Notes under the pieces: generated by a model
What the model saw: only the letters and a program-made list of their open reading frames with translations
What the model was told of the DNA's origin: nothing
Database searches by the model: none
Source: an uncultured Candidatus Woesearchaeota archaeon
GTDB taxonomy: Archaea > Nanobdellota > Nanobdellia > Woesearchaeales > 21-14-0-10-32-9
Assembly (NCBI GenBank): GCA_903891505.1
Contig: CAITEO010000087.1
Span: 1 to 33,457, forward strand
Direction: 5' to 3'
Length of the DNA stretch: 33,457 nt
Part shown: positions 7,660 to 21,173 of the stretch, piece after piece
How the letters are laid out: each line of letters begins with the position of its first letter
How positions within the stretch are numbered: position 1 is the stretch's first letter
Program-made: the position numbers and the translations under genes

Positions 7660-7740
7660 CAAAATCTCCTTCCTGACACCCCGTAGGGGGCGACCCCCGT
7701 CAGGGCGCGCAAAAGATGTTTGCTGCGCACGGAGATTTTG
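7660..7740 (-). repeat. Palindromic intercistronic element, family I, copy A
   Basis: Private arms CAAAATCTCC (7660-7669) and GGAGATTTTG (7731-7740) enclose 61 bases. On the minus strand these hold a GCGCA/TGCGC hairpin, then a CCTGAC/GTCAGG stem closing the conserved core of G5, C5 and G4 tracts. The element fills almost the whole gap between the CYTH stop (7748) and the Nudix ATG. Confidence 0.85.
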
Positions 7741-8349: not shown

Positions 8350-8432
8350 CTAAAATCACCTATGCTCCACCCCGCAGGGGCCATCCCCCGGAGCATCGCG
8401 TCACTTTTCGTCGACGGCGACGGTGATTTTAG
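8350..8432 (-). repeat. Palindromic intercistronic element, family I, copy B
   Basis: Arms CTAAAATCACC (8350-8360) and GGTGATTTTAG (8422-8432) enclose 61 bases. On the minus strand these hold a CGTC/GACG hairpin, then ATGCTCC/GGAGCAT closing the core of G5, C4 and G4 tracts. It sits between the SufC stop (8446) and the CYTH start (8320). Confidence 0.85.
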
Positions 8433-11111: not shown

Positions 11112-11305
11112 GTAAGTTTGCTGTACGCGAGAAAACACCACTGTGTTTCCTGCGCCCAGAAAATCAATAAAGATTTTCTTGGCGCCGCTGTCTTTGACAG
11201 CGTGTCTCGACGGGGGTTGCCCCCTTCGGGGTGCACAAAAAATCCACTGGCTTTTTTGGCACAGGAAACGCTTAACGTTTCCTTGTGGCGAGAAAGCAAA
11301 CTTAC
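11112..11305. repeat. Palindromic intercistronic element, family I long form, copy C
   Basis: Arms GTAAGTTTGCT (11112-11122) and AGCAAACTTAC (11295-11305) enclose 172 bases. On the plus strand there are successive hairpins: GAAAACAC/GTGTTTCC, AGAAAATC/GATTTTCT, CGCTGTC/GACAGCG, the core of G5, C5 and G4 tracts, then AGGAAACG/CGTTTCCT. It aligns along most of its right half with copy D. It fills the gap between SufD (stop 11332) and SufS (start 11060). Confidence 0.85.
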
Positions 11306-11331: not shown

Positions 11332-12168
11332 CTATTCCTCCATCATCTTGCTAACTTTCTGTGATAGCATCGGCAAGAGCATCTCGAGTTTATCAACACT
11401 TAGCGTTTCAAGCGATTTATGAATAAACGCATTTATCATCATCTCTTTCGCGTCAATCTCGCTTATTCCTCTTGATTGCAAGTAAAATAATTTTTCATCA
11501 GCTATCTGCGTTATTGACGAGCTATGATTGCATTTTACGTTGTTATTTAGTATCTCGAGATTTGGAAGCGAAATCGCTTTCGAATCTTTCAATATTAACA
11601 TATCAGATTTCTGCATTCCTTCTGCGTTCTCTGCAAATCGCTCGATTCTCACAAGTCCTGTTAACATCATGTCTGCACTCGAGAGCAAGCCTCTATTGTG
11701 AAGCTCTGATTTTGAATTTTTTCCCTTGTGGATTATTGACACTTTGTGCTCCTGCTTTTGTCCGTTAGCGAGGAACAAATTCATGACTTTAATCGTGCTA
11801 TTCTCCCCAATTTCTATCGTTGTGTTTGTTGATTTGTTTTTTGACCCAACAACTATTTTATGAATTACGACTTCCGCATTCTTTTTTATTATAATTCTTT
11901 TAACAACATTCATCTCATTGTTTGAATCCATTATTTCTAAATAGTTTAGTTTTGAGTTATCATCACATATTATGTCAAGTTCTTTTAGTTTATCGTTCGT
12001 ATTTACAACCGATCTTGTCATTCCTTTCTCGACGTTGATTGTAAGCAATTCTGGTTGCCCTATATTCACATTAAATTTATTTATATCAAATTTATTCTTC
12101 GCCACGCTTTCATTTCTTTCTGAATCTTTTTCGCTGATTTTCTCACGTGGCATCTTCTTGCTCTTCAT
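11332..12168 (-). CDS. sufD: SufD-like Fe-S assembly scaffold subunit
   Basis: Partner of SufB in the SufBCD complex. At 278 residues it is shorter than bacterial SufD (about 420) because it lacks most of the N-terminal region, keeping the beta-helix and C-terminal part. The motif VKCNHSSSIT (211-220) carries C213 and H215; the His matches the functionally important His360 of E. coli SufD. The stretch EKLFYLQSRGIS is typical of the SufB/SufD C-terminus. It overlaps the SufB stop by four bases (ATGA), indicating coupled translation. Confidence 0.9.
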   Translation of the reverse strand: MKSKKMPREKISEKDSERNESVAKNKFDINKFNVNIGQPELLTINVEKGMTRSVVNTNDKLKELDIICDDNSKLNYLEIMDSNNEMNVVKRIIIKKNAEVVIHKIVVGSKNKSTNTTIEIGENSTIKVMNLFLANGQKQEHKVSIIHKGKNSKSELHNRGLLSSADMMLTGLVRIERFAENAEGMQKSDMLILKDSKAISLPNLEILNNNVKCNHSSSITQIADEKLFYLQSRGISEIDAKEMMINAFIHKSLETLSVDKLEMLLPMLSQKVSKMMEE

Positions 12169-14678
12169 CCAAGTCCACCTTCAATTTCAAGTTCGATTAA
12201 TTTGTTCATCTCGACAGCGTATTCGAGTGGAAGTTCTTTTATGATTGGTTCTATGAATCCAGATACAATAAGTTGCACTGCTTGCTCTTTGCTAAGTCCA
12301 CGTGTTTGTAAGTAGAATATTTGTTCTTCGCTTATCTTTCCTACTTTTGCTTCGTGCACGAGATTTGAGTCTTTTTCATCTGACACTATGACTGGATATG
12401 CATTGCTCTGACTTATGTTATCAAACATTAGAGAGTCGCAATTAACTGCACAATTTACTCCGAGCGCGCCTTTTTTTACAATTACAAGTCCTCGGTACGC
12501 AACGATTCCACCATCTTTACTTAGACTCTTTGAGGTTACTGTGCTCGATGTGTTCGATGCTAAATGGTAAACTTTCGCGCCAATGTCTTGATTTTGACCC
12601 TGGCCTGCGTATGCTATTGATAGATGAGTTGCCCTAGCGCCTTTGCCTGCAAGAACTGATGCAGGGTAGAGCATTGTAACTCCCGAGCCTAAATTTCCAG
12701 AAACCCATTCCATGATCGCATTTTCTTCGACAACTGCTCGCTTCGTGTTCAAATTGTATGTATTTTTAGACCAATTCTCGACGCTACTATATCTCATGCG
12801 AGCGTTTTTCATGACAAATATTTCAACGCAGCCCGCATGAAGTGAACTGCTGTTGTAAATTGGCGCCGAGCAATTATGGACGGCGACTCCTGAAACAGTG
12901 TATGTGTGATAAGACTCGACTCCAAAATTATACACTTTCGTATTGTAAACATTTCTTTTAGATATTTTTTTTATAGGTACATATGCAAATTTTTTATCCA
13001 CATAAAACATAGCTGCCCTTTTTTTGTTGTTCATCTTCTCCTGAACTTTAATATCAACTATCTTTCCAAATTGTATCATATGCTCCCCAGTAATTCCGAG
13101 TGTGTACATGTCCTGTCTGTTTTCGAGTATCCTTATTCTTTTGTTTATGAAAGCAAATATGCCAAGTCTTAGCAAGATATCTCTTCCTTGCCTGGTAAGT
13201 TTTTCTGATGTTGTGTTTATTCTGAATGATTCTTTAAATCCTGATTTGTGCGCCCTGCAATAATAGTTGCCGTCTCCTCTAAACCAACCTTTTATTATTT
13301 CTAACTGATTTTCATGAGATTCATACATCATCCATGGAAGAACTTGTTTTCTGTTGTTCTTATCTCCAAATTGCTTGAAAAGTCTGGCTAAATCAACAGA
13401 GCACACAACAACAGAGGTTCCATTATTTTTTTTGTGCACCATTTCAAGGATTTTTTTGACATCAAACACGCGTTTAAGGCATAGTTTGACATCCTCAATG
13501 TATTCTTTTTCTTTTGAATTGAATGAAAAATTCAAATAAGAATTAGAACTAACGCTGCCTTCTGCTAAATAATATCCTACTAATCTAAAGAACTCTGGAA
13601 CCAATTCTACATTTATTTTTTTTGTATAACTTTTCCCGCTCGATGTTTTTCTTTCAATTTCGAAAATATGATTTGTATTTTTCTTCACAGTATTGTTTAT
13701 GGGCAGAACTAAATAATCTCCTTTTTTGAAATATACTGGTGCATTCCATCTAGGATTAAATGTTTTATTTCGCTCGTTCTTCCATTTCCTATCAACGTAT
13801 AGAAATGGATGCTCAGGTGTTGAACTTATTGTTTGGGTTGAATCTCCATAGAATTCTATGTCATAAATCTCTCCAGTATATTCGTAGAATTGCAAATCTT
13901 TAGATCCCATAAACTCACCTTCAGATGTGAGTATCTTTTCACCTGATTGTATCTCCTCTATTTTTTTATAGTCAGTATTTGTAGTCACAAGATTTCCTGC
14001 GGTAAAGCACCCTTCGATGTAGTGGCACTCTGCTCCTTCGTCGATTATTATGAGTGTGTGTTCGAATTGCCCCATTCCTTCTGTATTCATCCTAAAGTAT
14101 GCTTGCAAAGGCATCGATACTTTGACTCCTTTAGGGACGTAGATGAATGTTCCACCAGACCATACTGCGCCATGCAATGCTGAGAACTTGTGAAGCGCCG
14201 GTGCAACTCCTGTTGTCATGAAATACTTCTTGACAAGATCAGGATATTTTTTGACTGCAACATCCATATCTTCAAAGATGACTCCTTTTTTTTGCAAATC
14301 TTCTTTTAGATTGTGATAAATTATCTGACTATCATACTGCGCGCCAACGCCAGCGAGTGCTCGTCGTTCAGCTTCTGGAATTCCGAGTTTTTCGAATGTT
14401 TGTTTTATGTTCTCAGGTACTTGCTCCCAAGTGTTCGCATTCGGTTTCGCGTCAGGCACAGAAAAGTAATGTATCTTGCTCAAATCAAGCTTTGATATAT
14501 CAGGCCCCCATGATGGATTTTTCTTATCTAGAAATATTCTGAATGCTGCAAGTCTTTTATCAAGCATCCATTTAGGTTCACGCTTGTACTCCGATATTTT
14601 ACGTACAGTTTCAACGTCGAGTCCTACGTCTGCTTCGAACTTGTTTTTTACATCGTCCGCAACGTTTAAGTCTTTCAT
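12165..14678 (-). CDS. sufB: SufB Fe-S scaffold precursor with intein
   Basis: Main scaffold on which SufBCD builds Fe-S clusters. The 837-residue precursor contains a 379-residue intein (C224-N602); splicing joins G223 to C603 and leaves a 458-residue SufB. The mature part keeps the Cys matching E. coli SufB Cys405 (C747 in NCDSLMF) and the Glu matching Glu434 (E776 in LVHEAKVG), both important for cluster assembly. The insertion lies in the conserved YIEGC(S/T)AP segment. No clear TATA box was found; the 204-base gap upstream holds element D, whose arm reaches to within 21 bases of the ATG. Confidence 0.96.
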   Translation of the reverse strand: MKDLNVADDVKNKFEADVGLDVETVRKISEYKREPKWMLDKRLAAFRIFLDKKNPSWGPDISKLDLSKIHYFSVPDAKPNANTWEQVPENIKQTFEKLGIPEAERRALAGVGAQYDSQIIYHNLKEDLQKKGVIFEDMDVAVKKYPDLVKKYFMTTGVAPALHKFSALHGAVWSGGTFIYVPKGVKVSMPLQAYFRMNTEGMGQFEHTLIIIDEGAECHYIEGCFTAGNLVTTNTDYKKIEEIQSGEKILTSEGEFMGSKDLQFYEYTGEIYDIEFYGDSTQTISSTPEHPFLYVDRKWKNERNKTFNPRWNAPVYFKKGDYLVLPINNTVKKNTNHIFEIERKTSSGKSYTKKINVELVPEFFRLVGYYLAEGSVSSNSYLNFSFNSKEKEYIEDVKLCLKRVFDVKKILEMVHKKNNGTSVVVCSVDLARLFKQFGDKNNRKQVLPWMMYESHENQLEIIKGWFRGDGNYYCRAHKSGFKESFRINTTSEKLTRQGRDILLRLGIFAFINKRIRILENRQDMYTLGITGEHMIQFGKIVDIKVQEKMNNKKRAAMFYVDKKFAYVPIKKISKRNVYNTKVYNFGVESYHTYTVSGVAVHNCSAPIYNSSSLHAGCVEIFVMKNARMRYSSVENWSKNTYNLNTKRAVVEENAIMEWVSGNLGSGVTMLYPASVLAGKGARATHLSIAYAGQGQNQDIGAKVYHLASNTSSTVTSKSLSKDGGIVAYRGLVIVKKGALGVNCAVNCDSLMFDNISQSNAYPVIVSDEKDSNLVHEAKVGKISEEQIFYLQTRGLSKEQAVQLIVSGFIEPIIKELPLEYAVEMNKLIELEIEGGLG
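12873..14009 (-). mobile_element. SufB intein with LAGLIDADG endonuclease
   Basis: In-frame insertion that should self-splice from the SufB precursor. Residue numbers are for the precursor. C224 is the first residue and H601-N602 with C603 downstream form the C-terminal splice junction. Block B is TPEH (T287, H290). Blocks C and E are LVGYYLAEGS (366-375) and IIKGWFRGDG (461-470), a two-motif DOD endonuclease. Block F/G is VYNFGVESYHTYTV through SGVAVHN. All splicing residues are present, so splicing is expected to be active, and both endonuclease motifs still end in acidic residues. Confidence 0.95.
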
Positions 14679-14698
14679 TTTGTGTTTCAGTTAGTTTG

Positions 14699-14837
14699 CA
14701 AATTTACCGTACGCCGCCGTCAGTTTAAGGCGCGTCTCGACAGGGGTTGGTCCCCTAGGGATGCACAAGAAAATACTGCGTATTTTCTTGGCACACGAAA
14801 CGTTTAAGCGTTTCCTTGTGTCGAGAAGGTAAATTTG
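14699..14837. repeat. Palindromic intercistronic element, family I long form, copy D
   Basis: Arms CAAATTTACC (14699-14708) and GGTAAATTTG (14828-14837) enclose GTACGCCG, then TCTCGAC paired with GTCGAGA. Inside are the G4, C4 and GGGA tracts, an AAGAAAATA/TATTTTCTT hairpin and a GAAACG/CGTTTC hairpin. The hexamer TTAGTT lies outside both arms (14691-14696 and 14838-14843), a possible target duplication. The element occupies most of the gap between the regulator gene (stop 14883) and SufB (start 14678). Confidence 0.85.
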
Positions 14838-14882
14838 TTAGTTCATACTCTTTTTTCTTGTCTTTCGTTTGCTTTATCTCGC

Positions 14883-17645: not shown

Positions 17646-17799
17646 ACTCGTATTTTTGTGGCCGCGAGCTATCGAGCTAAACACGCATTAACAAATACGA
17701 GTCTAGCCCAAGAAAATCTGTGAGGATTTTCTGGACACAGAAAACGTGAAACGCTTTCTTGTGTTTTGTTGACTGCATTATTCATTTGCTCGCTGGGCT
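17646..17799. repeat. Multi-hairpin intergenic element H, related to C and D
   Basis: First hairpin: ACTCGTATTT (17646-17655) with AAATACGAGT (17693-17702). Second unit: AGCCCA (17705-17710) with TGGGCT (17794-17799) around AGAAAATC/GATTTTCT (17711-17732) and an ACACAGAAAACG/CGCTTTCTTGTGT pair. The second unit shares its two inner hairpins with elements C and D, but the G/C tract core is missing. It fills the gap between two copper-cluster genes. Confidence 0.65.
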
Positions 17800-21089: not shown

Positions 21090-21173
21090 GTTGAGTTGCC
21101 TATGCTCCACCCCGGAGGGGGCGACCCCTGGAGCAACGCGTCGCTATAATACGACGGCGTACGGCAACTCAAC
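21090..21173 (-). repeat. Palindromic intercistronic element, family I, copy E
   Basis: Arms GTTGAGTTGCC (21090-21100) and GGCAACTCAAC (21163-21173) enclose 62 bases. On the minus strand these hold GTACGC, a CGTCG/CGACG hairpin, and GCTCC/GGAGC closing the core of G4, C5 and G4 tracts. It lies between CopA (start 21049) and the CopZ-like gene (stop 21185). The inner sequence is very close to copy B. Confidence 0.88.

Follow-up and report, generated by a model that had tools for sequence, protein, structure and literature searches.

Several families of small structured repeats resemble the elements described here. MITEs are short, lack coding capacity, end in terminal inverted repeats with 8-9 bp target duplications, reach high copy numbers and have ends in common with a longer unit, features that have parallels in the present elements. 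REP elements and REPtrons, with RAYTs of the IS200/IS605 type, offer a second likeness, being intergenic palindromes in many copies with conserved mismatches in their stems (PMC3733652). In integron attC sites structure is likewise kept while sequence changes, and bases are left unpaired within the stems. On a smaller scale, GNA and GNNA loops with G-C pairs are reported to form extraordinarily stable DNA hairpins (PMC4686876). A search of the open-access literature returned no description of elements of the kind reported below in Woesearchaeota or Nanoarchaeota.

The source genome, from an uncultured Candidatus Woesearchaeota archaeon, comprises 1.03 Mb in 101 contigs; one of these, C87, was analysed over its whole length of 33,457 nt and is called the window. 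A motif able to fold into either of two hairpins forms the conserved centre of many small DNA elements, and for several of these it can be demonstrated that they are mobile and carry no genes. We consider it quite likely that these elements form a MITE-like superfamily of non-autonomous, intergenic transposons in Woesearchaeota. The window contains the following:

7660 to 7740, plus strand: copy A, an 81-nt element with an outer stem (CAAAATCTCC/GGAGATTTTG), an arm A with the core and an arm B hairpin.
7672 to 7704, plus strand: arm A of copy A, stem CCTGAC/GTCAGG around A-CCCC-GTA-GGGGG-CGA-CCCCC (two alternative hairpins).
7705 to 7728, plus strand: arm B of copy A, GCGC-GCAAA / TTTGC-T-GCGC, with a conserved bulge.
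8350 to 8432, plus strand: copy B, with the architecture of copy A, between a CYTH gene and sufC.
11112 to 11305, minus strand: copy C, which has additional hairpins and a length of 194 nt, at the sufD-sufS junction, which is tight in four relatives.
14698 to 14839, minus strand: copy D, with a degenerate core, between a TrmB-like gene and sufB.
17657 to 17776 (limits approximate), no strand assigned: a multi-hairpin intergenic element without the core, with a AGAAAATC/GATTTTCT hairpin in common with copy C.
21090 to 21173, plus strand: copy E, with the architecture of copy B and an outer stem GTTGAGTTGCC/GGCAACTCAAC.

Hairpins of the AGAAAATC/GATTTTCT type (AAAATC/GATTTT with AAACG/CGTTT) recur together as a pair within elements of distant genomes (L005, L007, L216 and L228). 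SufB, encoded on the minus strand of the window at 12165-14678, is interrupted by an intein-like segment that contains a LAGLIDADG domain.

The core of copy A occupies 7677-7698 and reads CACCCCGTAGGGGGCGACCCCC on the plus strand, between the flanks CCTGAC and GTCAGG. Its G tract can pair with either C tract, which on the minus strand is a C tract pairing with either G tract. The first-pass annotation had given the core as G5 TCG C5 TAC G4, a correct minus-strand reading of this interval, and its proposal of two alternative hairpins is supported. In isolation the first and second hairpins are close (-2.9 vs -3.8 kcal/mol as DNA; -5.0 vs -7.8 kcal/mol as RNA), and the predicted fold of the whole copy A element uses the second. 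Copy A is a strongly folding three-armed palindrome, with a folding energy 5.6 standard deviations below that of shuffled sequences as DNA and 4.6 as RNA. The core had also been placed in all five copies; it is exact in four, at 7677, 8368, 11221 (minus strand) and 21108, and degenerate in the fifth, near 14740. Across the source genome CACCCCGNAGGGG has 15 matches, against none for the reversed control.

Outside the core, the stems change while continuing to pair. Among ten copies from the source genome, 97.3% of the 260 proposed-pair cells form and both sides have changed in 16 of the 26 pairs. Double-changed cells number 49, against 16 in shuffles, and slid registers are only 34-49% paired. 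The compensated closing stem (CCTGAC/GTCAGG vs GCTCC/GGAGC) was correctly recognized in the first-pass annotation, and arm B and the outer stem likewise change yet pair. The outer stem, which corresponds to the terminal inverted repeats, is 100% paired in these ten copies; that it varies from copy to copy, unlike in ordinary MITEs, counts against the MITE-like reading, although it still pairs. As for the proposal that such compensation reflects selection for structure, the compensatory change is real, but palindromic transposon ends can yield it without RNA selection. Arms that change while remaining paired could also arise, with no selection involved, through palindrome correction during replication. 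Since the core tracts are invariant in the source genome, covariation there cannot choose between the two hairpins. A scan of diverged cores found few true variants for this choice and no clear excess over the reversed control; in L090 and L129 compensatory changes preserve hairpin 1, whereas variants with a GNAT loop fit hairpin 2.

The structure had been tentatively interpreted as a three-way-junction RNA that tunes read-through, that is, as a cis-acting switch or processing element between operon genes. The three-way junction itself stands, and together with the two alternative hairpins, the strong covariation and the presence of several copies within the suf operon it would suit such a role. 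The placement of the copies argues otherwise: relative to co-directional flanking genes the two orientations are about equally frequent (25 vs 28), and divergent (24) or convergent (13) gaps hold 37 of 90 copies, counts that are approximate because ORFs were called by a simple length rule. By that rule 42 of 144 cores lie within an ORF, in many cases a short one. Among the 260 cells in the ten copies there is no G-U pair. An RNA selected on one strand should favor G-T mismatches and palindromic DNA should not, so that the near-equal counts of 129 G-T and 141 A-C mismatches in the stems of 181 copies speak against RNA; the accompanying tRNA control was too small to be informative. Rfam 15 gave no match at the gathering threshold in the window, and a permissive search of six loci returned only sub-threshold matches, all away from the elements. 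Taken with the target-site duplications described below and a pattern of presence and absence typical of mobile DNA, the random orientation, the divergent and convergent gaps and the lack of G-U pairs leave an RNA role in read-through unsupported. The two-hairpin motif therefore probably does not work as an operon RNA switch, a reading that we regard as very unlikely.

Evidence for mobility comes from the element borders. In 17 of 118 copies, against 0.25 expected, the outer stem is directly bordered by exact direct repeats of 8-12 bp, mostly 8-9 bp; those longer than 9 bp are probably 9-bp duplications lengthened by chance. In the window no copy shows a clear duplication, which counts against the MITE-like reading. 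Elsewhere in the source genome there are one such copy, on contig C3, with GCGAAAAAG on both sides of GACATTGTTA...TAACAATGTC, and one doubtful case. A recent subfamily in genome G200, with GGCTCTTAGGCAAAT ends and a usual length of 164-168 bp, shows exact 9-bp duplications in 8 of 14 entries, two of which share a site. Copies with GGCTCTTAGGCAAAT ends and no core also exist, some of them duplicated at the target (L254, L269 and L273), so the core is unnecessary for mobility in this subfamily. At L151 (1125-1465) two adjoining elements occupy one target site (CCTCTTTCC), a repeated insertion. Two copies in L113, at 3510 and 5835, have the same left half, and the second ends right after the core, as if broken.

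Comparison with relatives reveals empty junctions. The sufD-sufS junction, which holds copy C in the source genome, is tight in G001, G002, G004 and G005, and the sufC-TIM junction, which holds copies A and B, is tight in G002 and G004; these relatives are too distant for base-exact junctions. By our reading G001, too, has a CYTH gene at this place between sufC and TIM, so the gene was probably not brought by the element. That elements flank this single gene, and that structure is conserved over sequence, might recall integron attC sites or cassettes. No GTTRRRY/RYYYAAC ends were obvious by eye, the copies are dispersed and not arrayed, and targets are duplicated; on the grounds of dispersal and duplication this identity, of almost negligible probability, was rejected.

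Among 288 genomes of the order, 71 contain the core, and the control yielded almost no matches. Its distribution is patchy, copy number reaching about 84 per genome and differing sharply within genera (75, 11, 1 and 1 in one; 69, 14, 4 and 0 in another). Named records with the core belong overwhelmingly to Candidatus Woesearchaeota, Nanoarchaeota or other DPANN; the few bacterial records appear unrelated, and the viral contigs searched contained no core. Conservation of the core across the order and the mostly intergenic position of the copies could also be explained by palindromes that spread by transposition and were then kept as protein-binding sites for chromosome organization or transcription ends. 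Such retention is improbable, given that most of the order's genomes lack the core, among them all ten others tested from the genus and family of the source genome, and that close relatives such as G200 and its relative carry different elements at orthologous gaps.

MITE-like elements would depend on a transposase supplied in trans, and ends shared with longer units are observed. One genome carries 124 GGCTCTTAGGCAAAT ends, one of which opens an ORF of at least 99 aa. A GGCTCTGTAGAAAA end is common to core-bearing elements and to a longer unit in G159 that opens a related ORF; the starts of the G200 (GGCTCTTAGGCAAAT) and G159 (GGCTCTGTAGAAAA) ORFs are alike at 9 of 18 residues. Both transposase-like ORFs lie just inside the unit ends and run off contig ends. 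Neither has a Pfam or NCBIfam match, and the 99 N-terminal residues of the apparent partner have no relative in Pfam, NCBIfam, plasmids or viruses. The whole GGCTCTGTAGAAAA unit was not found in fifteen G159 contigs, nor was a complete transposon with the ends of the source genome. No tested transposase family accounts for all carriers. As candidate partners, DDE_Tnp_IS1595 was rejected for its absence from carriers, and DDE_Tnp_IS240 was set aside at 6/26 carriers vs 2/29 non-carriers (p = 0.13).

Y1_Tnp is commoner in carriers (14/26 vs 6/29, p = 0.013), which would accord with a REP/RAYT-like element whose single-stranded hairpins are recognized, for its movement, by a transposase of the Y1 (HUH) type. 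Hairpin tips and conserved mismatches would suit such recognition, and at L207 (1107-2831) a Y1 transposase gene and an ORF of unknown function are enclosed by the two arms of an inverted repeat that resembles the elements and has a degenerate core. Duplications of 8-9 bp, as found here, are not expected of Y1 transposition. The high-copy carriers G013, G247, G113 and G176 have no Y1 match in their incomplete assemblies, and the GTAG tetranucleotide at the hairpin foot is not conserved: TAGG varies with the arm A stem, and GTAG appears only if that stem starts with C. Movement by Y1 is therefore doubtful, if slightly less so than retention as protein-binding sites. For the MITE-like elements, insertion would instead be carried out by a transposase, probably of the DDE type, a class suggested by the duplication length, from an insertion sequence with matching ends. 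The outer stem would serve as its pair of terminal inverted repeats, each insertion would leave an 8-9 bp target duplication, and the window copies, which have none, would have arisen likewise.

The loop of the first core hairpin provides a further clue. In a free-loop search (CCCCNNNGGGGNCNNCCCCC) of 25 carriers, 133 of the 150 cores among the matches listed have a GNA loop by hand count; as the copies are related, no p-value is attached. The frequency of this loop and the reported stability of GNA loops in DNA suggest that hairpin 1 may also form, as DNA. GNA/TNC triloops show modest enrichment in other arms (26/66 vs 314/1469). The core may act as a folded single-stranded DNA hairpin, a GNA mini-hairpin alternating with the second hairpin, for instance when the DNA becomes single-stranded during replication or transposition.

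Junction architecture differs between genomes. In the source genome the open outer stem is arm C (CGG...CCTA) and the closed arm is B; most other carriers show the reverse, arm B being the outer stem and arm C closing into a hairpin (CGG-TCAAAATC-loop-GATTTTG-CCCTA). Because arm order, junction bases and the arm B bulge correspond between the two layouts, we read the three-way junction as circularly permuted between the source genome and most carriers. Some copies have extra hairpins, placed among other sites inside the loop of core hairpin 2 (L016, L036 and L039), and in other genomes the core lies within longer stems. Many genomes (L020-L184) retain pyrimidine-pyrimidine mismatches, either T-C or C-T, at fixed positions in the stems of arms A and C. 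As a speculative extension, a transposase or host factor might read the extruded single-stranded three-way junction via its GNA core, leaving the arms free to vary so long as they pair; the permutation would then arise when an intermediate, circular or single-stranded, is opened at another arm and inserted again. This is a long shot, and if true the elements would represent a structure-reading transposition system specific to Woesearchaeota.

The elements would be a major undescribed repeat class in an archaeal order for which metagenomes are the main source of knowledge. A caution also follows: strong covariation between intergenic repeats can have its origin in mobile palindromic DNA instead of RNA function. 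A core that survives while the ends change, within a permuted junction, poses a concrete mechanistic question testable on synthetic DNA. New features are the order-wide core with its GNA loop, arms that change and stay paired, and the circularly permuted junction. Integron attC sites differ from the present elements in their recombination boxes, of which none were seen here, in their arrays and in the target duplications found here. REP elements are 20-40 nt long and GTAG-tagged (PMC3733652), whereas the present elements span about 80-220 nt, lack a conserved tag, duplicate their targets and have no consistent Y1 partner. The C-GNA-G loop with a free N recalls the mini-hairpin d(GCGNAGC), here as a conserved part of a mobile element, where it and a second hairpin compete for one G tract. 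Compared with MITEs, the internal core is more conserved than the ends and spans many end types, the outer stems vary by copy, and the three-way junction is permuted.
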